23,232 nt of DNA from a virus. The first letter of the stretch is position 1, and each line of letters opens with the position of its first letter. Under the pieces are notes generated by a model, which made no database searches, was not told the origin of the DNA, and saw only the letters and a program-made list of their open reading frames with translations. This document shows positions 1 through 23,232 of the stretch, piece after piece. Both the position numbers and the translations under genes were made by a program. The stretch covers positions 1 through 23,232 of IMG/VR virus record IMGVR_UViG_3300013126_000257. One strand, given 5' to 3'.

Positions 1-265
1 CCCCGCCGCCGCCCCCGCCGCCACTTGGCACCAGACGGACGGTGATGATCTGCCCCGGCTTGGGCCGCACCACGCGCCAAAGCGCCCGCTCCACCACCCA
101 GGTGCCGATCGCGACCTCACGCACACGCGCCACGTCGGCGCCGGCCTCCACCACCAGCTCCAGCAGCGTCGCCCCGGCGGGAACCCGACGCCGGACCGGA
201 GCACCGAGCGGCGCGACCGCCACCAGCGACAGCGGCGCGAGGTCGCTCTTCTCAGGCGCCGGCAT
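1..265 (-). CDS. Tail-tip / host-specificity protein (gpJ-like), N-terminal fragment
   Basis: This is the start of a protein that continues past the left edge; about 88 codons are visible. It opens with ATG at 265-263, 14 nt inside the end of the NlpC/P60 gene. The visible part has a short acidic/hydrophobic start, then a segment containing VREVAIGTWVVERALWRVVR, followed by PKPGQIITVRLVPSGG and a run of glycines. This matches the usual N-terminus of siphophage tail-tip proteins: a beta-rich domain, 'W..VRPK.G..V....P' and a Gly-rich hinge. Its place directly after the tape measure, two minor tail proteins and a tail peptidase is the standard place for the gpJ-like receptor-binding hub. Family membership is inferred from this short piece and from gene order. 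Receptor specificity cannot be judged. Confidence 0.72.
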   Translation of the reverse strand, partial: MPAPEKSDLAPLSLVAVAPLGAPVRRRVPAGATLLELVVEAGADVARVREVAIGTWVVERALWRVVRPKPGQIITVRLVPSGGGGGGG

Positions 266-4986: not shown

Positions 4987-5666
4987 TCAGTTTGTCTGCC
5001 TCTGTCCGGCCTGGAGGCCGGCCACCAGACCGGCCTCTATGGCCGGCAGCAATGCCGCCAACCCCGCCTCGTCGAACCCTTGGGCCTTGCCGACTGTCAG
5101 CGCGGCGCCGAGGTCAATCCCAATCACAACCCCGGTCATCCCCGCCGTGCGCAACTGCCCCTGAGCGGAAAGAGCGACGCTCCACGCCTCCCAGCCTTCT
5201 ATGCTGACGGGGGCGTGGCGAGCGTAAGGGCATTTGGTCCCGCATCGGGTCCCGGCGCGGGCGCACCGACCGCAATAACCGGCGCCCCCGCCCCAGTGCC
5301 AGCGGGCGAGGGCGATGAGACGTTTTTTTCGAGGTCCAGCTCGTAGGCCGGGCCGAGAAAGCGCGTCTCGAACTGATCGGCCACCTGCCACAAGTCCATC
5401 ACCGCGCCGATCGCCTCCGGTGTCACCGCGAGCGGGGCGTCGTCGGCGCCGACCACCCCGCGCCAGTCTAAGATCGCCGCCAAAGCGGCCCCCTTTAAGA
5501 AAGCGGCGCGGGTGGCGCCGATCCCTGGCGCCGCCCCCGCGGCATCCTTCCCGGCCTCGGCGCGGGCAGCCATGATCACGGCGGTGGTGGCAGGCCGGAC
5601 GTAAAACGCAACGTCGCCGCCGATCTCGAGCCAGTACGGCTCGCGCCGTAAGTCAAGTTTGAGCAT
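4987..5666 (-). CDS. Frameshifted tail chaperone (gpGT-like), joined by -1 shift
   Basis: An open frame ending at 4987 has no good start of its own and overlaps the chaperone gene in the -1 frame. A ribosome slipping at A AAA AAC (5328-5322) would read GAA-AAA-AAC and then continue CGT-CTC-ATC. This gives about 226 residues: 115 of the chaperone plus 111 new ones. The new part contains EGWEAWSVALSAQGQLRTAG, then IGIDLGAALTVG and LAALLPAIEAGLVAGLQAG. That is the W..W..L..Q-R..G and leucine-rich tail seen in the T part of other siphophage chaperone pairs. Its stop lies 10 nt before the tape measure start. The fusion is inferred from the slip site, frame and position, all directly visible. Confidence 0.82.
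5199..5666 (-). CDS. Tail assembly chaperone (gpG-like of the lambda G/GT pair)
   Basis: The 155-residue product starts with ATG at 5666, overlapping the tail tube stop by 1 nt. The visible pattern is a beta start (LKLDLRREPYWLEI), helices around AARAEAGKDAAG and AAFLKGAALAAILDWRGV, then VTPEAIGAVMDLWQVADQFE. It resembles tail chaperones lying between tail tube and tape measure genes, which bind the tape measure during tail assembly. The last ~40 residues after DLEKN are Pro/Ala/Gly-rich and low complexity, as expected for the unshifted product. A slippery heptamer lies in frame at codons 113-115 (5322-5328). Confidence 0.85.
   Translation of the reverse strand: MLKLDLRREPYWLEIGGDVAFYVRPATTAVIMAARAEAGKDAAGAAPGIGATRAAFLKGAALAAILDWRGVVGADDAPLAVTPEAIGAVMDLWQVADQFETRFLGPAYELDLEKNVSSPSPAGTGAGAPVIAVGAPAPGPDAGPNALTLATPPSA
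5322..5328 (-). promoter_or_regulatory. -1 programmed frameshift slippery heptamer A AAA AAC
   Basis: On the minus strand the codons read GAA AAA AAC, giving the heptamer A-AAA-AAC, a perfect X-XXY-YYZ slip site in the correct phase of the chaperone frame. It lies at the point where the upstream frame turns low complexity and the -1 frame becomes protein-like. The sequence after it is strongly GC-rich and could form a stimulatory structure, but I did not fold it. Confidence 0.85.
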
Positions 5667-6604
5667 CAGGCGTAGCTTTCGATGTCGTTGATCAGGGTGG
5701 CGGTCAAAGACTTGGCGCCGTCGTCAAAAGCGCTCCAGGAAAACTCGGCGTCGATCCCCCCCGGCCCCTGGATCGGCAGTTTCGGTTTCGGCAACTGCAC
5801 CTTGGGCAGAGAAAACATCAAGGAGGCGTCTGTGGCCGAATAGCCGAAATCAAGTTCTATTTCGGTGCCGTCGGTCGCCTCGGTCAGCAAGAGGTCGCCC
5901 TCAAACCGCACCGTCAAGGACCCGGTGAGGGCAAATTGGCCGGCATCGAACCGGGTCGCCAGCCCGTCGGGCCGGATCGGCCGGAACTCCGACAGCTCAT
6001 TGGAGATGCTCACCGATCCGCCCAGCACGATCCCCAGCGCGGTGCCCCCCTTTTTCACCACGCCTTGGAAGGCCGAGAACCGGTCGAGAGACCCAATCGC
6101 GGCCGGCGTGCCGCCCGAACTGGTGGCTGCCGCCACCTCGTTCTGGCCCAGCAGCGACAGCGTCGCCTTGGTGTTTTCGTCCGCCCAGTTGATTGCCAGC
6201 GTGTTGAGTTTCACGCCCGTCGACAAAAAGTACTTCGGCAGTGCGGGGTGCCCGATTTCCAGCGCCGCACTCGGCGGTTTCAAATTTGCCGCGGTGAAGA
6301 CGTGGCTGTCGCCACCGGTAACCGCAGTCGAGACCGGTGGGCCCAGCAGCAACTTCAACCAAAAACCGATCGATCGCGTGCACAGCGGCACCGCGATTTC
6401 CCCGCCGACTTCTTTTTTTCCCCGCGCCCCCTTTTGAGGACGGCGTCCGAACCCGAGCACGTCGGACTTCACCAGTCCTTGGGTCATGCCGAAATTCGTG
6501 CTGATGAAAGGAAGCGCCACGAAGTCGCCGGTCGGCGCGACCCCATAGCTGGTCTCAAACTTGGCGCACAGCAGTGCGTCGGCCCCGGTCGCGCTGTCAG
6601 CCAT
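5666..6604 (-). CDS. Major tail tube protein
   Basis: The protein has 312 residues and is beta-rich. It starts MADSATGADALLCAKFETSY and contains DVLGFGRRPQKGARGKKEVGG, then GFWLKLLLGPP, a typical N-terminal pattern of siphophage tail tube proteins. The second half is built from repeating beta strands with TGSLTVRFEGDLLL and ELDFGYSATD. It forms the hexameric rings that stack into the tail tube. The length is at the upper end for the family. ATG at 6604 overlaps the tail terminator gene by 8 nt. The place between tail terminator and chaperone is standard. No sheath gene lies beside it, which supports a non-contractile tail. Confidence 0.87.
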   Translation of the reverse strand: MADSATGADALLCAKFETSYGVAPTGDFVALPFISTNFGMTQGLVKSDVLGFGRRPQKGARGKKEVGGEIAVPLCTRSIGFWLKLLLGPPVSTAVTGGDSHVFTAANLKPPSAALEIGHPALPKYFLSTGVKLNTLAINWADENTKATLSLLGQNEVAAATSSGGTPAAIGSLDRFSAFQGVVKKGGTALGIVLGGSVSISNELSEFRPIRPDGLATRFDAGQFALTGSLTVRFEGDLLLTEATDGTEIELDFGYSATDASLMFSLPKVQLPKPKLPIQGPGGIDAEFSWSAFDDGAKSLTATLINDIESYA

Positions 6605-7034
6605 TGGTTAGTTCCCACGTTGTTTGGAATGAGAAGTCAAAAAACGCCGCGCCGTTAGCGACACCGATCAGCCTCGCGGCAACGAAGTTGAAGGGACCAC
6701 AGCCCGTAACCGGCCGCCAACCGGCGAGCGCCTGGATCAACCCCCCGCGCAATGGCGTCATCACCTGCCGCTTGCCGTCCCCGCGGGCGTCGTTACCGGC
6801 CCGCACGACCACCACCACGCTGATCCTCTCTGTCAACGGCTGGCTGTGGCCACCCCCGAGCACCTTGTTGACGCCGGCCGTCAGGGTCGACCACAGCACA
6901 AACGCAACCGGGGTCGCGGGCGGCAGCACCCCTTTCTCGACCATCGACGCGAAATCGAGGCAGCCCTCCACCGACACCAGCGCCGGCACCAGGTCCCGCA
7001 GGCGGCTGATGACCGCGTCGACCAGATCAATCAT
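6597..7034 (-). CDS. Tail terminator (Mu gp37-like / lambda gpU-like)
   Basis: The protein has 145 residues. The start MIDLVDAVISRLRDLVP is typical of phage tail terminator or Gp37 families: a short N-terminal helix, then a beta-alpha fold. The middle has LTERISVVVVVRAGNDARG followed by LRGGLIQALAGWRP, matching the edge strand and helix of these ring-forming proteins. The end has a beta hairpin with FFDFSFQTTWELTNG. ATG at 7034 overlaps the gpG-like gene by 4 nt. Its role would be to cap the tail tube at the correct length and dock it to the head. Assigned from motif pattern and gene order. Confidence 0.8.
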   Translation of the reverse strand: MIDLVDAVISRLRDLVPALVSVEGCLDFASMVEKGVLPPATPVAFVLWSTLTAGVNKVLGGGHSQPLTERISVVVVVRAGNDARGDGKRQVMTPLRGGLIQALAGWRPVTGCGPFNFVAARLIGVANGAAFFDFSFQTTWELTNG

Positions 7035-7549
7035 GTCATGAGGTCTCCTCTGGCCATATCCCCGAACCAGTCGGCGAAAATCGCCCGTATTTCCGTTTTG
7101 TCGTCCTCGCCGACCCCCAAAAACGGCCGCGCCGGCATCGTCACCTGCCGGCGCATGACCCAGGCGCCGGACGCGAGCTGAAAGCGCAGGCCATGGGCGA
7201 GGACCCCTTGCCGCTTCGGCTTGATCACGCCCCCGAACTGATGAATGGCTGCGTAAAGCACGGCGGTTGACAGTGTGACGCTGTCGTTGGTCGCCGTCCG
7301 TGCGATGGAGTCCCGCAGACGGCCACTGTCGACCAACGTCTTGCCCCCGAGGCTGGCGCGCAGAGACGGTTTCCACGCCTCGCCGTCCGGCCCCGTCCCG
7401 TGCTCGAACCGCTGGGCGGTCGCGGTTTCCAGGTAAGAGCCTACGTCATCCATCACCGGCGACGGATCAGTCCAGGCGCGGGCCAGGACCTCCAGCGCCG
7501 CCCGCATCCCGGCATCCTCCAGCTCGATCGTCTGACCGGCACCGCTCAA
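7031..7549 (-). CDS. Phage virion morphogenesis protein (Mu gpG-like)
   Basis: The protein has 172 residues. The family pattern is clear: an N-terminal helix region, then FEHGTGPDGEAWKPSL, GKTLVDSGRLRDSI, AIHQFGGVI and MPARPFLGV. These blocks (sexF..G..PDG..W.p, L..tG.L..si, iHQfGG, RPflG) define the Mu gpG / P2 gpS tail completion family, which acts in head-tail joining. The start is TTG at 7549, overlapping the previous stop (TTGA), with GAGG seven bases upstream. In Mu this gene lies between gpF and gpI; here it lies after the fibre cassette, next to the tail terminator. Confidence 0.92.
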   Translation of the reverse strand: MSGAGQTIELEDAGMRAALEVLARAWTDPSPVMDDVGSYLETATAQRFEHGTGPDGEAWKPSLRASLGGKTLVDSGRLRDSIARTATNDSVTLSTAVLYAAIHQFGGVIKPKRQGVLAHGLRFQLASGAWVMRRQVTMPARPFLGVGEDDKTEIRAIFADWFGDMARGDLMT

Positions 7550-8706
7550 GGGGAGGCCTCGCCGACGGAGATGCGGACGGCCGTGATCGCGTCACTCGGC
7601 GAAAACCCGAGCAAAAACGTCTCTGTGGCCCGAGCGGCGGGCCTCTCCGGCACCCCGTTGCCGAACTGCACGAAATGGGGGGCAAACGACCGCCAGGTTA
7701 CGTCCTGGGGGGAGGCTGCGTGCTGAACAGTGAGATCAAGGTTGACGGCCGATGACCCCCGCCATGGTTTGACCCAAAGATCGAGACATGGGGTGCTGGC
7801 GTTGACCGGATAGGGCAGATACCAGGACAAGCCCAGCGCAGGATCAATGATCATCGCTACACGATCGCGGCCGAACCAGACATTGGCCGAAAACCCCGCA
7901 GACGCTTCGATTTTTGAGACCGAAGTGAAGTACTGCCGGGTCCCGATGGCCGCAGCCGCCCCCGGCCCGGCAATCACCTCTTCGACCGCCTCACCGGCGA
8001 TCCCAATGCCGACGATCCGGAAATCAACCCCGTTCACCGGGCCGTCGCAGCCCAGCGATATTTGATGCGCGCGGTACGGGCCATAAACCACCCCGGGCGG
8101 GCCGACATCCGGTCCATCCATCACCACGGCGCCAGGCCCAGACTGAGGCCGGGGAGGGCTGATTGCCCTCCAGTTTATGCCGGCCACCGCGGTCACGGCC
8201 GTGAGGTCAACCTTGCGCCCCCCCCAAACGCCCCCCTCAACCTCGGTCGCCCATCCGTCATCGCCGAACCCGATGAGCATTCCCGGCGTGCCGGGAGCCA
8301 GATGTGAGAGCGCGATCGTGCCCGCGCCCAGCCCGTGCGCATGATCGCCCCGCGCCGCAAAAGAACTGGTTCCGGCCCGCCCGGTCCCGGAAACCTCCGC
8401 GGGAACGGCCGCAGGTCCGAACCCAGCCGACCCGGCCGATCCTGCCACGTTGGGAACATACGCAACGCTCACAACATCCGCCGGATCGGCCGGGCGGGCC
8501 AGCCGGATCGCAGTACCATCAACCTCGTAGTCCTCCCCGCCAGAGGCGACAGAGGTGAGCATCACACCGGCAACGGTCACAATCTCGGTGCCCGGCATGA
8601 TCGGCCGGGACACCGTGAATGACCTCGGGTCCCCCGCGGCCCCAACCGCAACCTCGGTCGCCCGCCGCTCCCGCACCTGGCGCAGAGGCACGCTAGTTCC
8701 TGTCAT
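7546..8706 (-). CDS. Fibre-like virion protein with N-terminal beta module
   Basis: The protein has 386 residues. Residues ~36-88 form a small beta module (GTEIVTVAGVMLTS...DYEVDGTAIRL...DVVSVAYVP) also found in three neighbours. Then comes AGTSSFAARGDHAHG, a motif common in phage fibre proteins, followed by LSHLAPGTPGMLIGFGDDGW. The C-terminal ~200 residues, with several Trp residues (NVWFGRDR, LGLSWYLPYP, LWVKPWRG), look like a globular beta domain that I cannot assign; a carbohydrate-binding tip is plausible but unproven. ATG at 8706 has GGAG six bases upstream. The gene overlaps gpG by 4 nt and is the last member of the cassette. Confidence 0.7.
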   Translation of the reverse strand: MTGTSVPLRQVRERRATEVAVGAAGDPRSFTVSRPIMPGTEIVTVAGVMLTSVASGGEDYEVDGTAIRLARPADPADVVSVAYVPNVAGSAGSAGFGPAAVPAEVSGTGRAGTSSFAARGDHAHGLGAGTIALSHLAPGTPGMLIGFGDDGWATEVEGGVWGGRKVDLTAVTAVAGINWRAISPPRPQSGPGAVVMDGPDVGPPGVVYGPYRAHQISLGCDGPVNGVDFRIVGIGIAGEAVEEVIAGPGAAAAIGTRQYFTSVSKIEASAGFSANVWFGRDRVAMIIDPALGLSWYLPYPVNASTPCLDLWVKPWRGSSAVNLDLTVQHAASPQDVTWRSFAPHFVQFGNGVPERPAARATETFLLGFSPSDAITAVRISVGEASP

Positions 8707-8716
8707 GGGTCACTCC

Positions 8717-9103
8717 TCAAGCCAAGATAATTGGGGGCCGTTCGGGCCCCATACAGTCCGCACCCACCAGCAGGACCAACACATCAGCGGTAGGAGGATC
8801 ATCGAGATCAACCCCGCCACTTGCGATAATCCCCCACATCCACCCGGCCACCGCCGGAACCGAGACCTGAAGCCGGTGCAATCCGGCCTGCTCATCGTCG
8901 GTCAGCCGGGCCATGAACTCCAGCGGGGTCAGTAGCCGCCGGCGCAAGGGGCTATCGGCCCCCAAAAACGCCAGCACCTCGGGATCACCGGCCGGGAGCG
9001 GCACCGGGTCGGTCGGCGGGTCCCAGTCGGGCCTGGGCGTGGGAAACACCTGGACGATCCGGCCCTCGATCCGCTGAACGTAAATATCTGAGATACCGGA
9101 CAT
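8717..9103 (-). CDS. Small fibre-associated protein of unknown function
   Basis: The protein has 128 residues from ATG at 9103; a GTG one codon earlier (9106) is also possible. ATG overlaps the upstream stop by 1 nt (TGATG), with a GGGGG stretch four bases before it. The visible block LLTPLEFMARLTDDEQAGLH followed by GGVDLDDPPTADVLVLLVG resembles small proteins encoded beside tail fibre genes in many phages ('LTP.EF..RFT..E' and 'iDLdDP.T'). Their function is not established; a chaperone or fibre-assembly role is a guess from location. Confidence 0.6.
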   Translation of the reverse strand: MSGISDIYVQRIEGRIVQVFPTPRPDWDPPTDPVPLPAGDPEVLAFLGADSPLRRRLLTPLEFMARLTDDEQAGLHRLQVSVPAVAGWMWGIIASGGVDLDDPPTADVLVLLVGADCMGPERPPIILA

Positions 9104-9720
9104 CACGCCCCCGCATGGCGATAGGTGGCCTCAATCCGCTTCTCGGCCGACACGGATTTCACGAAGCAGAGAACGTTCCCGCTCAGCGTATAGTCCGCCG
9201 ATGTCTGATGAGCGTGGTTAACCCACACCGCGACGGTCCCGGCCATGGGAGTCCAGGAAAGCGCGAAGTGCCTGCGGTCGCCAAGGTCCTGGGGCACCTC
9301 AGACAGCGGCACTCCCCTGGTCTGCTCAAACCGGACCCGGGTGCGCGTCGCCGCCCCACCCGGTGGCACCGGCTGATCACGGACGGTCAGGAAAAACCAG
9401 CGAACAGCCACCACCCCCGGCAGCGGCAGCGTCCCACCGATGGCGGCAACACCGAAGACGTAGGTGATGCTCCGGAACCCATACCCCGGCGTGCCGTGCA
9501 GACGGCCGTCGCCGGCCAAGAGCACGCCTGCCGGAAGGCCGTTAGAAACGCCACCGTCGCACTCCGGCGCGCCCCCCGCGATCAGCTCGTAGCGGACCGC
9601 CCCGACCGCGCTGAGGGTCGCGTCGTAGGCCTGCCCCTCGATCGCGTCCGGCAGGACGCCAGCGGTCTGCCACCGCGGCAGCACCGGGCCAGGCGGTGGA
9701 GGGGAACAGCTCATGGGCAT
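9103..9720 (-). CDS. Ig-like / beta-module virion protein
   Basis: The protein has 205 residues. After a Pro-rich start, residues ~28-95 look like a putative Ig-like domain: AIEGQAYDATLSAVGAVRYE, GLPAGVLLAGDGRLHGTPG, then ITYVFGVAA. This is the 'LP.GL.L...G.l.GTP...g.y.F.v.a' pattern of bacterial Ig folds. Residues ~159-205 carry the cassette's shared C-terminal module (AVWVNHAHQTSADYTLSG ... RIEATYRHAGA). Such proteins often decorate capsids or tails and bind surfaces weakly. ATG at 9720 has AGAGGG close upstream. No enzyme motif is visible. Confidence 0.65.
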   Translation of the reverse strand: MPMSCSPPPPGPVLPRWQTAGVLPDAIEGQAYDATLSAVGAVRYELIAGGAPECDGGVSNGLPAGVLLAGDGRLHGTPGYGFRSITYVFGVAAIGGTLPLPGVVAVRWFFLTVRDQPVPPGGAATRTRVRFEQTRGVPLSEVPQDLGDRRHFALSWTPMAGTVAVWVNHAHQTSADYTLSGNVLCFVKSVSAEKRIEATYRHAGA

Positions 9721-9745
9721 GGGACCCTCTCAAGAGACGAGAGAC

Positions 9746-9774
9746 CCTCACCCCCAGCCGCGCCGGGGGTGAGG
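9746..9774 (+). terminator. Stable hairpin with T-rich tail reading on the plus strand
   Basis: A perfect 10-bp stem (CCTCACCCCC / GGGGGTGAGG) with a 9-nt loop is followed on the plus strand by ACTTTTGTTG, which looks like an intrinsic terminator for plus-strand transcription. The genes here are all on the minus strand; in that direction the hairpin is preceded by CAACAAAAGT and followed by GTCTCTCG, with no T-tract. It lies in the 69-nt gap between two fibre-like genes. Confidence 0.55.
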
Positions 9775-9789
9775 ACTTTTGTTGTCGGA

Positions 9790-10797
9790 TCAGGCGGTGG
9801 CCAGATAGTCGACCACCACCAAGTCGTTCTCGACATTGGCCGTCCGGAAGGTGATCACGGCCCCGCTCAGCTCATAGTCGAACTGCACCTGATCCGCGGC
9901 GACCTGGCGGCGCTGCCGGATGCCGTTGAGGCAGACGCGCACCGTCTCGGCCAAAGGCGGATAGGCGAGGGCATAGGCGGTATGATCGCCGGCATCCACC
10001 GGCTCCTCCTCGGTCACCTGCCGGACCCGCACCGCCTGGCCATCGGCACCGCCGATCAACGTGAACCCGGCCGACAAGGCACCGAGCCGGATGCCGTCGC
10101 TCCCGACCACGATGCTGTCGTTGGCGGCCCGCACGGTGATCGGAACGCCGTCACCCCCGGCCAAGCCGGCGCCGAGCGCGCTGCCGGCGATGAGGTCGGC
10201 AGTGATCCCTGACGCCCGCACCTGCACGAGATCAGCCAGGACCTCGATCGCGGCGCCGCCCACCACACTGAGCTGGTTGCCGATCTTGACCAAACCATTG
10301 CCGGCGTCAATCTGGCCGGCCGCCGAGGTCTGCACCCAAACTGCGGAGTCCTGCCCGAGCACGAACGGCGGATCGGACACCATGGTCCAGTTGCTGTCGT
10401 GATTGACCTCGCCCTCGGCGATATGCAAGGTCGCCGCGATCAGCCGCTCCGCCGTATCGGCGTCCTCGTCCCGGCTCCACACCCCGGCCCCGACGACGTA
10501 GATGCCATTCTCGGATGCGAGCGTCTGGTCCTTGACCAGCACGCGGTCGCCCGCGATCAGGGTGACGGCGTCAACGGTCTGGATGCCCTCGAGCACCAGG
10601 GTGCCGGTGGAGGCGACCCTCGCCGCCTGCTTGTGGTTGAGCCGGCGCACGAGATCGAGCACCTGGCCGAGGTTGACCGCGTCGGCGGCATTGGTGCCGG
10701 CGCCAAGATTACCAACCCGGTAGCCGGACGCGTCGACGTCACCGGCAACACGGATCTGAGACGTGGTGCCGCCAAGACGCGGCTGGGTGATAGCCAT
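9790..10797 (-). CDS. Phage fibre protein
   Basis: The protein has 335 residues. The N-terminal ~50 residues carry YRVGNLGAGTNAADAVNLGQ, the classic anchor or collar repeat of phage fibres. Residues ~55-155 hold the block TGTLVLEGIQTVDAVTLIAG, then DRVLVKDQTLASENGIYVV and GVWSRDEDADTAERL, widely found in phage tail fibres. A Gly/Ala/Val-rich stretch (about 160-245) looks like a beta-helical stalk. Residues ~283-335 are the shared beta module (CLNGIRQRR, FDYELSGAVITF, DLVVVDYLATA). ATG at 10797 has GAGGTG about six bases upstream. It is the largest clearly fibre-like gene in the cassette, yet lies next to head genes rather than tail-tip genes. Confidence 0.83.
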   Translation of the reverse strand: MAITQPRLGGTTSQIRVAGDVDASGYRVGNLGAGTNAADAVNLGQVLDLVRRLNHKQAARVASTGTLVLEGIQTVDAVTLIAGDRVLVKDQTLASENGIYVVGAGVWSRDEDADTAERLIAATLHIAEGEVNHDSNWTMVSDPPFVLGQDSAVWVQTSAAGQIDAGNGLVKIGNQLSVVGGAAIEVLADLVQVRASGITADLIAGSALGAGLAGGDGVPITVRAANDSIVVGSDGIRLGALSAGFTLIGGADGQAVRVRQVTEEEPVDAGDHTAYALAYPPLAETVRVCLNGIRQRRQVAADQVQFDYELSGAVITFRTANVENDLVVVDYLATA

Positions 10798-10847
10798 GAA
10801 AACACCTCAGTTTGTTGTTGTTGCAGGAACTTAACGTTTCGCCCGGA

Positions 10848-11129
10848 CTAGACCGATCTCCAATAGCGGATCGCCAACTTGTCTCCAGGCGACATCGGCA
10901 CGTCGGCAGCAATCACTAACGACATCCCGGAAATCGTATAATCCTCGTCGAGATCGAGGATCAGACCATTGAGTGACACAATCTCGGTGCCGATCACCGG
11001 CGGCTGATGCAGCGGGTAGAGCCGGCTGGCTGGCGTGACCACAATCCAGCGCTCGAGAGTGGGGCGGAGCACCGCGGGGGCGATCGTCCCCAGGCCCCCC
11101 CCCTCGACGATGACGATCTTGCGGGACAT
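10848..11129 (-). CDS. Small beta-module protein, possible fibre adaptor
   Basis: The protein has 93 residues from ATG at 11129, with AGAGG about six bases upstream. A longer frame exists, but its upstream part reads as Arg/His-rich out-of-frame translation of the neighbour. The C-terminal ~50 residues (GTEIVSLNGLILDLDEDYTI followed by SG..LVIAADVPMSPGDKLAIRYW) are the same module that ends the 335-residue fibre and begins the 386-residue protein. The N-terminal ~40 residues (MSRKIVIVEGGGLGTIAPA) resemble no family I know. A minimal copy of the module this close to the fibre suggests an adaptor or capping subunit; this is inference. Confidence 0.68.
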   Translation of the reverse strand: MSRKIVIVEGGGLGTIAPAVLRPTLERWIVVTPASRLYPLHQPPVIGTEIVSLNGLILDLDEDYTISGMSLVIAADVPMSPGDKLAIRYWRSV

Positions 11130-11137
11130 CCCAGCCT

Positions 11138-11593
11138 CTACAGCTTGATCCGGACGCCGAGCCGGATCGCCAGCGTGGTCGCAGACACCGCCTGACCCAC
11201 CGGCATCAGGTAGCCGGTGGTGGGGGCGGTGGTGGTGATCTGCCCGGCGGTGGCGCCGAGATAGTAATGAGCGCCCGCCACCAACGCGGCGGCACCGGTG
11301 CCCGCGGTCCAATCGCCAACGGTCAGGAACCCCTCACCATGGACATTGACCACGGCGTCAAGCGCGGCCACCGCGGTGGCGAAGCCGGTGACCTCCGACT
11401 TGACCGCGTCGGCAGCGCTCGCCAGCATCACCTCGCCGGCAGCCGTCACCGCGACCGCCTGGCCCGGCTCAAGCGCTTCCTTGGCGACCAGATTGGTCGC
11501 ATCGGCGATCGACACCACACCCGCCAGCGTGTCGCCATCCGGCAACTGGGCGGTCATGCCATCAATGAGGACCAAGGGTTTTCGGTGGGCCAA
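11138..11593 (-). CDS. Decoration-like protein, paralogue of the DUF1320 fusion's C-terminal domain
   Basis: The protein has 151 residues. The N-terminus is PLVLIDGMTAQLPDGDTLAG. The rest alternates beta strands around ALEPGQAVAVTAAGEVMLAS, GFATAVAA and GEGFLTVGDW, ending with GAHYYLGATAGQITTTAPT and VGQAVSATTLAIRLGVRIKL. The closing block is a common ending in phage virion beta domains ('YyLgaTaG.itttaPt...v..vG.A.sattL.i'). It is also clearly related to the C-terminus of the upstream DUF1320 protein (GNYFLSATAAGRITRTPP). The start is TTG at 11593 with a strong AGGAGGT five to six bases upstream; no better ATG is near. It follows the DUF1320 gene by 38 nt. A capsid decoration or fibre-base role is likely but unproven. 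Confidence 0.72.
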   Translation of the reverse strand: MAHRKPLVLIDGMTAQLPDGDTLAGVVSIADATNLVAKEALEPGQAVAVTAAGEVMLASAADAVKSEVTGFATAVAALDAVVNVHGEGFLTVGDWTAGTGAAALVAGAHYYLGATAGQITTTAPTTGYLMPVGQAVSATTLAIRLGVRIKL

Positions 11594-11631: not shown

Positions 11632-12498
11632 TCACAACGCAATCGGCTTGGCGGGGTCAACCGCCAGCACCGTGGCGCTGGCCGCCGTCCCGATGAACAC
11701 GACGAACTGCCCGCCGTCCTGCGGCGGCGTCCGCGTAATCCGTCCTGCCGCGGTGGCGCTGAGAAAATAGTTGCCGCCGGTCTCGAGCACCGCGGCGCCG
11801 TCCGCAGTTACGGCGGCCCAGTCGTTGCGCTCGACCCGCCCCCGATCGCGCCACCGCACGATCCGCCCTTGGCTGGCGTCACTGATTGCCACCCCGACCA
11901 CGGTCGCCGTGCCTCTGGCGTCGGCCCGGGCGGGAACCGCCCGGCCGGCGCCGTCGAAGGTGATCGGCTGGCCAACCGCGATGACCTCCCCGGCGGTCGA
12001 GGTGTAGTCGGTCGCGGGCGACGCCGGCACCTCTTCGCGCTGCCCCCGCACCGGCGCCCCGCCGCCGCCCGCCCAAACCCCGAGCCGGCCGCCGCCGAAC
12101 TGTGGCTCGCGCGCCGTAACCCTTGTCCCGCCGGCCCCAGGCGCCACCGGGGTGACCCCGGCTGCGCTCAACACCACCCTTCCGGCGGCAACCTTGTCGA
12201 GCCACGCCAGCGCCAGCCGAAAATTCTCAACAACAAACTCGGGCGCCTCATCCATATGCAGCGAGTGGTAGGCGATCATCGCCACCTGCCGCCGCAACGC
12301 CTCCGGCACCGGATTGAGCGGCAACGCGTAACGCCCGGCCAAGTAGGAGTCGGCCAGCGCCGAGGCGTCGGCCAGCGCCAGCGCGGTGATGGACTCATCG
12401 ATCCCCCCGGTCCGCGGCACCGCCCGGTCGGTTAAATCGATGAGCCGCGCCGGCGAGCCGATACGCAGCAGGTCATCAAGCGTCGCGTAGGCCATCAT
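11632..12498 (-). CDS. DUF1320 head-tail connector (Mu gp36-like) fused to a decoration-like domain
   Basis: The protein has 288 residues, about twice the normal length for DUF1320. Residues 1-~135 are DUF1320: MAYATLDDLLRIG, IDESITALALADASALADSY, LAGRYALPL and MIAYHSLH. This domain is the Mu gp36-type connector at the head-tail vertex. After a Gly-rich linker (about 135-160), residues ~165-288 form a beta domain ending GGNYFLSATAAGRITRTPP and IGTAASATVLAVDPAKPIAL, matching the separate 151-residue protein encoded next. ATG at 12498 overlaps the capsid stop by 4 nt. No stop or frameshift is visible at the junction, so the fusion looks genuine. Which surface the extra domain sits on is unknown. 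Confidence 0.87.
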   Translation of the reverse strand: MMAYATLDDLLRIGSPARLIDLTDRAVPRTGGIDESITALALADASALADSYLAGRYALPLNPVPEALRRQVAMIAYHSLHMDEAPEFVVENFRLALAWLDKVAAGRVVLSAAGVTPVAPGAGGTRVTAREPQFGGGRLGVWAGGGGAPVRGQREEVPASPATDYTSTAGEVIAVGQPITFDGAGRAVPARADARGTATVVGVAISDASQGRIVRWRDRGRVERNDWAAVTADGAAVLETGGNYFLSATAAGRITRTPPQDGGQFVVFIGTAASATVLAVDPAKPIAL

Positions 12499-13478
12499 GC
12501 CACCGCATCGGCAAACAGATAGGAGGTGCGCGCGCCGATGATCAGCTCCTTGACGCTCTCGCCCACCCGCACCCGCCGGCCACCCCGCAGGCCGCCGGCG
12601 TGGGGATCATCGATCACGCCGGCCATCCGGGTGCCGTACTGGACTGTCAGCATGTGGGTGAGACCACCCGCGTTGGTGGCGGTGCGATCGATATACTGGA
12701 GTAACAAGGACTTGCCCCAGACCCGGGTCAAGGCCGGGGTCTGCCCCCGCCGCGCGCTGTTGACGTAGGCAGCGCCGACCAGCACCCGGCCGATCTCCAG
12801 CAAGTCCGCCAGTTGCTGGCGGGTAATCACCCCCTCGCCGGTGGTCGAGCCGATTGCCTTGACCAGCTTGGGGTGCCGGCGCAGCTTCGACCACACCGCC
12901 GACCCCATCACCGCCTGATTGGGCCGCCCGCCCAGCGTGGTATCAAGCGCATCGAGCAGCAAGGGCAACGGGTCGGAGTTGGTGTAGTCAGAAAACTGTC
13001 CGGTCCCGGAGAGCACTGTTTTGTTGGTATCCGGGTAGCTCGCGGCATCGAACGCCAGCGCCGCCACCCGACGCTCGCGATCCAGCCGAATGGCGTTTGT
13101 CAGTTGCTCGACCGCGTGATTGACCGGGTCATAGGCGTAGCCGCCCTGGGCACGCGATGCCTGGGCCTGAGTGATGTCATCCATCGGGATCGGCGCATCA
13201 AGGCCGTAGTCGACGCAAGTGCCCGACGCCTCGGACGCTTCATACTCGAGCTCATTCGGCCGGCCCTTGCGGCCAACCGTGGTTTCAGGCACGACGAAGC
13301 CGGTTTCGAGCGGGTAGGTGTAATAGGTGAACGACTTGGTGCCGATTGGCGCACCTTGCACCGGGCAAACCTCGTCGGCGATCAGGGCGACGTCCGGGTT
13401 GGTGTAGGCGATCGCGATCGCGGTCCGGGTCGGATCAACCGGAAACGGCGCGTTGTTGGCGACGGGATTGGGCATCAT
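12495..13478 (-). CDS. Major capsid protein
   Basis: The protein has 327 residues. The start contains TRTAIAIAYTNPDVALIADE followed by VCPVQGAPIGTKSFTYYTY, then FVVPETTVGRKGRPNELEYE and CVDYGLDAPIPMDDI. These blocks are typical of the HK97-fold major capsid family common in Mu-like and related phages of alphaproteobacteria. The later part has AVMGSAVWSKLRRHPKLVKA, a LADLLEIGRVLVGAAYVNSA segment and a C-terminal RTSYLFADAVA. ATG at 13478 overlaps the decoration gene stop by 1 nt; a second ATG follows at once and has the better spacing to CGGAGC. The place after protease/scaffold and DUF2190 protein, and before DUF1320, is the standard head order. Confidence 0.93.
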   Translation of the reverse strand: MMPNPVANNAPFPVDPTRTAIAIAYTNPDVALIADEVCPVQGAPIGTKSFTYYTYPLETGFVVPETTVGRKGRPNELEYEASEASGTCVDYGLDAPIPMDDITQAQASRAQGGYAYDPVNHAVEQLTNAIRLDRERRVAALAFDAASYPDTNKTVLSGTGQFSDYTNSDPLPLLLDALDTTLGGRPNQAVMGSAVWSKLRRHPKLVKAIGSTTGEGVITRQQLADLLEIGRVLVGAAYVNSARRGQTPALTRVWGKSLLLQYIDRTATNAGGLTHMLTVQYGTRMAGVIDDPHAGGLRGGRRVRVGESVKELIIGARTSYLFADAVA

Positions 13479-14194
13479 CAGCTCCGGGTGATCTCGATCG
13501 TCATGTCAATTGTGACGGCCGCGGTGTTGCCGCCGCCGGGCGTCAGCGCCAGCGTGTCCCCGGCATTGACGAGGTTGGCCGCGGTCGGGCTGGCAGAAAA
13601 GGCCATGCCGGCCGCCGACCCCGCCTGGGTCGCCGTGATGACACCGCCGGTGAGGGCCGCGGGGGCGCCGGTGCCCCCGGCGAGCCGCGCCACGGTGATC
13701 GTGGCGTCGGCCCCGGCCAGCGCCCCCTGGAGCACGGCGGTCACCTGAGTAATGGTGCCCCCGGCCGGCAGGTAGGCATAGGCAGGGCCATCCGCGGCCC
13801 GGGCACCCACCCGGGCGGTCACGAACTCGCGCGTGGCCACCATCGGCGCACCGCCGCGCAGGTGCACGTCGACGATATCGCCGGCCACGGCATCCCGGAG
13901 TGCAATCCCGATCACCCGATCACCGTGCGACGCCGCGATCGCGCGGCCATCGGCGTCCGCGGTGACCGGCGCCAGATACGAGAATGTCCCGCCCGCCACC
14001 AGCTCGACGATCCCTTCGAGGTGGACATCCACCCGTTCTCCCGCCACAACACTGCCGAGGGTGTCCGAAACCCCGAGCGGGGCATCGGTGCCGGCCGCAG
14101 CCTGCACCGCCTGGCCGGTCCCATCGAGCGAGACGATCCGCCGTGCGGCGATCGCACCTCCAGCCACGAAGGTCTTGATCAAGTCTTGGTTCAC
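13478..14194 (-). CDS. DUF2190-type capsid decoration protein with C-terminal extension
   Basis: The protein has 238 residues. Residues ~1-120 match capsid cement proteins: FVAGGAIAARRIVSLDGTGQ, APLGVSDTLGSVVAGERVDV, VTADADGRAIAAS and RVIGIALRDAVAGDIVDVHL. These proteins clamp HK97-type shells from outside. Typical DUF2190 proteins are about 110-130 residues, so the remaining ~110 residues (ITQVTAVLQGALAGADATIT, GVITATQAGSAAGMAF, GDTLALTPGGGNTAAVTIDM) are an extra beta-rich domain. The start is GTG at 14194 in a GTGA overlap with the protease stop, with GGAGGGAA seven bases upstream. The extension could project from the shell; I do not recognise its family. Confidence 0.8.
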   Translation of the reverse strand: MNQDLIKTFVAGGAIAARRIVSLDGTGQAVQAAAGTDAPLGVSDTLGSVVAGERVDVHLEGIVELVAGGTFSYLAPVTADADGRAIAASHGDRVIGIALRDAVAGDIVDVHLRGGAPMVATREFVTARVGARAADGPAYAYLPAGGTITQVTAVLQGALAGADATITVARLAGGTGAPAALTGGVITATQAGSAAGMAFSASPTAANLVNAGDTLALTPGGGNTAAVTIDMTIEITRS

Positions 14195-22490: not shown

Positions 22491-23072
22491 TTAGGGGACC
22501 CGTCGCCCGGGATCGCAAAACGCCTCCAGACCTGGCTCGAAGCCGGGCAGCCACCCCTGCGCGGACCGCCCCCCAGCCGCCGCGGGGGACCGGTCAGCGG
22601 CTGCTGCGCGGCGCCGTTCCCACGGCCGGCATCGCCGCAGGCGCCGACGCAAGCCCGGCGGGATATCGGCCACCAGTCGCTGGATCGCCCGCTCCCCAAC
22701 CCGGATCGCGTGCCGGGCCAGGAGGAGGCGCCGGATGTCGGCCGCCCCCCAGCCGTCGATCCAGTAGCGCCTTGCGAAGTACCACGTGAGCTGGGCGATT
22801 CCCAACGGCACCTCCAGTTCTTCCCCGCCCCACTCGGTCACCAGCCGCGAAGCGGCATCAACGCCCACCAGCCCGATCAGCGGATGGTCAATCGCCAGCG
22901 CCTTGGGGATGTAAAGGCGCGTCCCGCCATGGGCATCGATCACCGCCAGGGTGGCCCGCAGCCCGAGCAGCCGCTGGATCGGCTCGAGCACCCCCGGCAG
23001 CGTTGTCCGCCGCCCTCCGGCCTCGAGGCAGGTGATGCCATCATGACCGTGCCGGAGGCGCTTAGCCGTCAC
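22491..23072 (-). CDS. Mor-like late transcription activator
   Basis: The protein has 193 residues from GTG at 23072, with GAGGGGG six bases upstream; the open frame continues into intron sequence, which I exclude. The core LAVIDAHGGTRLYIPK matches the HLGGGQVYIPRG block of Mu Mor, which forms the dimer beta strand. A second block, LVTEWGGEELEVPLG, follows 40 residues later. Then comes a helix-turn-helix (DIRRLLLARHAIRVGERAIQ). The C-terminal ~50 residues are Arg/Ala-rich and low complexity. It sits upstream of the lysis genes, as mor/C genes do in Mu-like phages, and probably switches on the late operon that fills the rest of the window. The link to Mor is from motif similarity and context. 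Confidence 0.75.
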   Translation of the reverse strand: MTAKRLRHGHDGITCLEAGGRRTTLPGVLEPIQRLLGLRATLAVIDAHGGTRLYIPKALAIDHPLIGLVGVDAASRLVTEWGGEELEVPLGIAQLTWYFARRYWIDGWGAADIRRLLLARHAIRVGERAIQRLVADIPPGLRRRLRRCRPWERRRAAAADRSPAAAGGRSAQGWLPGFEPGLEAFCDPGRRVP

Positions 23073-23073
23073 C

Positions 23074-23119
23074 GCCCGCCCCCTCGGTCGCCCGCCCCTC
23101 GGTCGCCCGCCCCCCGGTC
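23074..23119. repeat. Three tandem 15-16-bp repeats before the Mor-like start
   Basis: The units are GCCCGCCCCCTCGGTC, GCCCGCCCCTCGGTC and GCCCGCCCCCCGGTC on the plus strand, followed by a partial GCCAGC. On the minus strand each unit holds a GAGGGG-like purine tract. They fill the space between the intron 3' end (23126) and the GTG start (23072). Confidence 0.85.
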
Positions 23120-23125
23120 GCCAGC

Positions 23126-23232
23126 ATCGGGATAGGGGGAGCCTCGCGGCTGCCCCCTCCCACACCACCGCACGTACGGGTCCGTATACGGCGGTTCGGC
23201 GGATTAAGCGTGGATGGTTGGTTCGAGAAGGG
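23126..23232 (-). mobile_element. Group II intron, 3' end (domains V and VI), bacterial class C type
   Basis: On the minus strand, domain V folds at 23164-23195: ACCGCCGTA pairs with TGCGGTGGT, a distal UACG-GACC-CGUA hairpin caps it, and a two-base CG bulge lies on the 3' side, as expected for domain V. Domain VI follows (about 23129-23161), GGGA-GGGGG-AGCC pairing back with GGCT-CCCCC-TCCC, with a bulged A at 23133, eight bases from the 3' end. The intron ends CCCGAT at 23126, a normal AY end. The remainder, with the reverse transcriptase/maturase, lies past the window. The class C call is from the domain V sequence as I remember it. Confidence 0.85.
23204..23232 (-). CDS. Possible C-terminal end of the intron-encoded reverse transcriptase
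   Basis: Directly upstream of domain V one frame reads LLEPTIHA then TAA (stop at 23204-23206). Intron-encoded proteins usually end shortly before domain V, so this is the likely end of the maturase. Only eight codons are visible, too few to prove it. Confidence 0.35.

Follow-up and report, generated by a model that had tools for sequence, protein, structure and literature searches.

A fibre and decoration gene cassette at the head-tail joint of a Mu-like siphophage, and its possible attachment to the head or neck

The window analysed here is the whole of IMG/VR virus record IMGVR_UViG_3300013126_000257, 23,232 bases of viral DNA with a G+C content (GC) of 68%, in which every assigned gene lies on the minus strand. 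Read along that strand, the small and large terminase, portal, gpF, protease/scaffold gpI, DUF2190 cement protein, B3-like capsid protein and DUF1320 adaptor are followed by a cassette of six genes (7546-11593), which is the subject of this study. After it come gpG, the tail terminator, tail tube, chaperones, tape measure, further tail genes, NlpC/P60 and a partial tail-tip gene. TerL, the DUF935 portal, gpF, the gpI protease, DUF2190, capsid and DUF1320 stand in the order of a Mu/B3-like head module. The record covers the virion section of a Mu-like siphophage and is truncated at either end; its resemblance to vB_ThpS-P1 and alphaproteobacterial prophages suggests an alphaproteobacterial affinity. 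The cassette, its two borders and the capsid cement gene are as follows, in order of transcription (HMM, hidden Markov model; E, expectation value).

13478-14194, minus strand: DUF2190 capsid cement protein with an extra 123-residue C-terminal domain (Pfam PF09956, E 4e-6)
11632-12498, minus strand: DUF1320/Mu Gp36 adaptor (residues 1-127; Pfam PF07030, E 1e-28) with an extra 148-residue cement-like domain (residues 141-288; DUF2190-family HMM, E 3e-7)
11138-11593, minus strand: stand-alone cement-like protein (PHROG 4368, E 6e-9; PHROG 18179 'virion structural protein', E 5e-4)
10848-11129, minus strand: 93-residue protein, mainly a small beta domain (BDOM; residues 35-90; BDOM HMM, E 1.5e-7)
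9790-10797, minus strand: 335-residue fibre (PHROG 2647 'head decoration', E 4e-29; Protein Data Bank (PDB) entry 9nx3 'Capsid decoration protein', E 1.8e-7, and 4e-19 by profile)
9103-9720, minus strand: 205-residue protein with an N-terminal immunoglobulin (Ig)-like domain, recognised by eye, and a C-terminal BDOM (residues 141-200; BDOM HMM, E 5e-9)
8717-9103, minus strand: 129-residue protein (only PHROG 25252, E 0.02)
7546-8706, minus strand: 386-residue fibre-type protein with an N-terminal BDOM (residues 23-83; BDOM HMM, E 3e-8), an AARGDHAH motif and a C-terminal region without assignment
7031-7549, minus strand: gpG/Phage_tail_S tail completion protein, the downstream border, whose start overlaps the stop of 7546-8706 (Pfam PF05069, E 2e-28)

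A first-pass annotation had placed six minus-strand open reading frames (ORFs) at these positions, between a DUF1320 connector and the gpG, tail terminator and tail tube genes. The frames are where it put them and form a single operon with the flanking genes, whose identities are borne out by profile matches. From DUF1320 to gpG the first four gaps measure 38, 8, 50 and 69 bp; the next pair of genes overlaps by 4 bp, a 10-bp gap follows, and the last gene overlaps gpG by 4 bp. Some start codons differ slightly from those first given: 8717-9103 has an alternative GTG start at 9106, and 10848-11129 is a short version of a longer ORF.

The cassette products are, with high confidence, virion surface proteins. 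In the 335-residue fibre, a YadA-like neck motif with a short helix (residues 20-50) precedes a decoration domain (55-160), GNGLVKIGN repeats of trimeric-fibre type and a C-terminal BDOM (255-333). Its decoration domain is homologous in sequence to the PHROG 2647 and 9nx3 type; large mycobacteriophages encode products identical in sequence to 9nx3, and a P-SS2 homologue of the fibre was identified as a virion protein by mass spectrometry (PMC2784084). The C-terminal part of 9nx3 is, by sequence, a different domain, and the genome it comes from is very different. An AlphaFold model of the fibre has a predicted local distance difference test (pLDDT) score of about 90 at residues 50-160. Foldseek found no significant match to this model in the PDB, and among viral models it returned tail-fibre and capsid-decoration names together, leaving the site undecided. 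A profile built from the C-terminal BDOM recognised three more cassette proteins and no other gene of the window; 9103-9720 also matches the fibre by blastp (E 3e-6). A regular expression for motifs related to AARGDHAH matched 5 of 24,998 ORFs, three of which lie in, or directly after, fibre genes with a decoration domain of the 9790-10797 type. The AlphaFold model of 7546-8706 alone (pLDDT 31) was unusable. Single-protein searches returned nothing useful for 7546-8706, 8717-9106, 9103-9720 or 11138-11593; a weak genome match of 7546-8706 (L337) was rejected, as it looks like a CoA-transferase. Of the six genes originally said to look like fibres or decoration proteins, four share the BDOM, one of them being the fibre/decoration protein, and one more is the cement paralogue; 8717-9103 has no assignable family and is possibly a fibre-associated or chaperone gene.

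The adaptor at the upstream border is itself altered. Its cement-like domain begins beyond the C-terminal end of the relatives' DUF1320 proteins, and the first cassette gene, 11138-11593, is a paralogue of this fused domain (37% identity over 112 residues, E 6e-11). Because none of the 146 other DUF1320 genes examined carries the fusion (1 of 147 with the window), adaptor and cassette differ from relatives jointly; scanning the collection with the fused domain found no second adaptor-cement fusion. The DUF2190 protein is likewise enlarged, a C-terminal extension above 80 residues being present in only 3 of 162 matches, the window among them. The same 123-residue domain, absent from almost every capsid-matched relative, also ends proteins of 257-278 residues in five other loci (L203, L204, L205, L209 and L240). 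The DUF2190/Phage_cement_2 family profile matches the base of the phi29 head fibre gp8.5 (6qyy) over nearly its full length (E 5e-7). The DUF2190 family therefore has a counterpart of the phi29-type trimeric base, while for the fused domain and 11138-11593 the relation is indirect.

The position of the cassette was judged against capsid-anchored relatives drawn from 84,980 genomes and IMG/VR, together with phages B3, POA1180 and TJ1. Profile HMMs were built for DUF1320, gpG, terminator and cement, spacing was measured with them, and near-duplicates were removed by clustering capsid proteins at 90% identity. DUF1320 and gpG lie less than 200 bp apart, typically at -3 bp, in 67 of the 68 loci that have both downstream of the capsid gene, the sole exception being the window, at 4,083 bp. 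Clustering leaves 40 groups, of which 39 are tight and the window is the only outlier. In 28 further clusters gpG was not found downstream and is mostly upstream of the capsid gene; here the terminator follows DUF1320 within 200 bp in 26, and in the remaining two the gap is 216 and 503 bp. It had been claimed that the connector is normally followed closely by tail-side genes, and for gpG this is true of 39 of 39 other clusters. The Mu/B3-like arrangement, in which DUF1320 leads immediately to gpG or the terminator, is thus interrupted in the window. No second insertion was found in gpF-anchored loci, most of which carry another capsid family, and no close relative with the same gene set was found. 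Gene order across these relatives supports the view that the head-tail joint has here received an unusual insertion, the cassette.

The neighbouring interval, between capsid gene and DUF1320, holds accessory genes in relatives (median 386 bp, up to 4.4 kb) and is -3 bp in the window. We considered whether the cassette merely lies one gene earlier in relatives; the slot exists, but its proteins are unrelated to those of the window. In two loci (L099:11055-14973 and L156:8734-12755) it spans 4.0-4.4 kb and includes repeat-rich, fibre-like proteins with SITDASQAVF-type repeats, making it another surface-gene slot in the head module. In a third (L086:11738-13039) it encodes a 433-residue protein that resembles a glycoside hydrolase by eye (WNEPN, ATETGF) and has no Pfam match.

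Comparable genes occur elsewhere. Tandem BDOM genes are found in at least eight unrelated viral contigs (L323, L318, L327/L345, L332, L344, L347, L349 and L350/L351) and, by eye, in an alphaproteobacterial genome (L171/L338); this recurrence argues that the cassette is a unit and not debris. The fibre of L323 has the same domain order as 9790-10797 and, with a second BDOM gene, stands directly after TerL and portal; the BDOM pair of L347 follows an internal-virion-protein-like gene. In Curtobacterium phage Sunfish (L255:8649-10979), gp37-gp39 encode a small beta protein, a fibre like 9790-10797 (gp38) and a GDSL esterase, between the head-to-tail adaptor and the tail-completion genes. Sunfish therefore has a homologue of the fibre in the same adaptor-to-tail slot, although its capsid and adaptor belong to other families, the cement fusion is absent, and gp37 and gp38 are annotated as hypothetical. 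The placements in Sunfish and L323 imply that cassettes of this kind find their way into the head or neck modules of phages unrelated to one another, and Sunfish offers a tractable stand-in for the question of head or neck attachment. In about 14 viral loci that encode the decoration domain, its neighbours are mostly tail-fibre, structural-protein and terminase genes; since these tallies are mixed, the domain by itself cannot separate head from tail.

Four further assigned genes place the cassette within the late operon.

12495-13478, minus strand: B3-like major capsid protein (PHROG 1005, E 2e-84; 46% identity to Pseudomonas phage B3)
6597-7100, minus strand: tail terminator (profile, E 1e-25)
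5666-6604, minus strand: tail tube (profile, E 6e-49)
2-265, minus strand: tail-tip (gpJ-like) gene, of which the record contains the first 88 codons (36% identity to the N-terminus of vB_ThpS-P1 gp003, E 5e-6)

The gpJ-like gene comes after NlpC/P60, the usual order, and the cassette lies about 7.3 kb ahead of it in transcription order, whereas a tail-tip fibre gene would be expected after it. The tail tip had been credited with a gpJ-like protein of its own: the start of such a gene is indeed present, but because the record ends 88 codons into it, a separate tail receptor-binding protein cannot be demonstrated. Two other regions of the record deserve mention. Overlapping frames after the tail tube (4987-5666, comprising 5199-5666 and a frame with a DUF7697 match at 4987-5391) may be a frameshifted pair of tail-assembly chaperones. 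The open-ended ORF at the right end (22491-23231) looks, on inspection by eye, like a Mor-type transcription activator, which a transposable phage would be expected to carry.

Appendages on the head or neck have been described in several phages. The phi29 protein gp8.5 is a trimeric fibre held on the capsid (PMC6542822). The trimeric domain at its base shares homology with the DUF2190 cement family of the head module, a resemblance to the window; however, phi29 joins base and fibre in one polypeptide, whereas in the window cement, fused adaptor domain and fibres are encoded by separate genes. The head spikes of RcGTA, with base Rcc01079 and fibre Rcc01080, sit on capsid pentamers (PMC7296036). 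They form a head-attached, multi-gene, polysaccharide-binding appendage on a siphovirus-like particle from alphaproteobacteria, which the appendage proposed below would resemble. In PDB sequence searches 7546-8706, 9103-9720 and 9790-10797 matched no RcGTA chain; not all other cassette genes were searched alone. In Anabaena phage A-1(L), the trimeric proteins gp82, gp81 and gp80 are chained into neck fibres attached to the neck ring (PMC10966104). The proposed appendage would resemble this one in chaining several trimeric proteins into one neck-ring fibre, but A-1(L) has a contractile tail, and its fibre genes gp80-gp82 are, by their numbers, remote from the neck genes gp5-gp8. The PDB sequence matches included no identified A-1(L) chain. 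Capsid fibres of phage 7-7-1 are a further precedent (PMC12796354). Head or neck fibres are thus a known kind of structure; the arrangement seen here is new.

On balance we lean towards the reading that the cassette encodes an appendage attached to the head or neck rather than to the tail. The grounds are (i) a 4.1-kb insertion exactly at the adaptor-gpG joint, unlike the other capsid clusters; (ii) an adaptor whose added cement-like domain has its paralogue in the adjoining cassette gene; (iii) homology of the DUF2190 cement family to the phi29 head-fibre base; (iv) the match of 9790-10797 to a solved capsid decoration protein and to a P-SS2 virion protein; and (v) similar fibres in the same slot in Sunfish or after the portal in L323. 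Present data do not separate the neck from the capsid shell as the likely site.

Several observations weigh against a head or neck site, and all are compatible with the idea that the cassette encodes ordinary receptor-binding fibres, sited at the tip or side of the tail, and that their genes moved to a place in the late operon where insertion is tolerated. The Mu-like alphaproteobacterial siphophage vB_ThpS-P1 shares the adaptor, terminator, NlpC/P60 and tail-tip families of the window, but its terminator directly follows DUF1320, there is no cassette, and the decoration domain of 9790-10797 lies in the terminal tail-fibre gene, gp002. Many homologues of 9790-10797 are annotated as tail fibres and sit in fibre clusters. 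The decoration domain is also present in 'orf22' of 9efk, whose 18 chains would fit six tail-fibre trimers, and the best solved relative of BDOM is a capsule depolymerase tailspike (9k4a, 2e-6). The product of 8717-9103 could be a fibre chaperone, the record stops before the tail-tip end of the genome, and location in the particle is not dictated by gene position. Transfer of tail fibre genes would, however, leave unaccounted for the coincidence of the insertion with a cement-extended adaptor paralogous to a cassette gene. Fibres of the same kind occupy head or neck modules in Sunfish and L323, and the tail-tip module of the window begins in its normal place, since the gpJ-like gene follows NlpC/P60. 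We regard tail fibres as a serious possibility, although one that we doubt. Relatives in which the same genes are plainly tail-tip fibres, named by the first-pass annotation as contrary evidence, were found for one domain (in vB_ThpS-P1) and not for the genes. Its proposal of head- or neck-attached fibres stands in part: the unusual insertion, the fibre- and decoration-type proteins and several independent hints agree with it, but the vB_ThpS-P1 tail-tip fibre has the same domain.

The DUF2190-type and decoration-type domains, and the enlargement of the DUF2190 protein itself, would also suit a set of proteins that stiffens or coats the whole capsid shell and has no role in cell binding. Such a coat is improbable given the trimeric neck motif and shaft of 9790-10797, the AARGDHAH motif, seen also in large fibre proteins, and the large non-cement C-terminal region of 7546-8706. 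That the cassette is an assembly join, or decayed cargo that does not work in this phage, is suggested by its occurrence in a single record with no close relative holding the same set, yet is very improbable. All cassette frames are intact, most genes are preceded by ribosome-binding-like sequences, and paralogy exists within the window; uniform GC (65-70%) and the overlap of the end genes, including the stop/start overlap at the cassette-gpG border, make a join unlikely.

We propose that the head or neck appendage, if it exists, would be a multi-part trimeric structure that grips the cell surface ahead of tail-tip engagement. Family knowledge of DUF1320 places the adaptor in a ring, which would show one extra cement-like beta-barrel domain per subunit, presumably on the outside of the neck ring. 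The free paralogue 11138-11593 may pack with this fused domain or with the capsid DUF2190 cement. The shared BDOM could act as a common plug joining the parts: 10848-11129 would be a single-domain adaptor, 9790-10797 would form the trimeric shaft, 9103-9720 would add an Ig-type extension, and 7546-8706 would be the distal, probably cell-binding, fibre. An evolutionary route can be sketched in which the adaptor ring became a neck-fibre platform: a cement domain, a distant relation of the phi29 head-fibre base, was fused to DUF1320 and duplicated, then a modular fibre set plugged by BDOM was added, so that a transposable non-contractile phage would bind cells by a second system that does not depend on the tail tip. 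This full scheme is speculative and, taken whole, rather unlikely.

Although head and neck fibres are known, genome analyses seldom predict them, since fibre genes are taken to be tail genes. Insertion at the DUF1320-gpG joint and tandem genes sharing a small beta domain are two signals that could be used to seek head- or neck-borne host-binding systems in prophages, and the homology between DUF2190 and the phi29 base provides a concrete anchoring hypothesis that is open to test. If the head or neck reading is true, tail-tip proteins alone would not give the host range of such phages.

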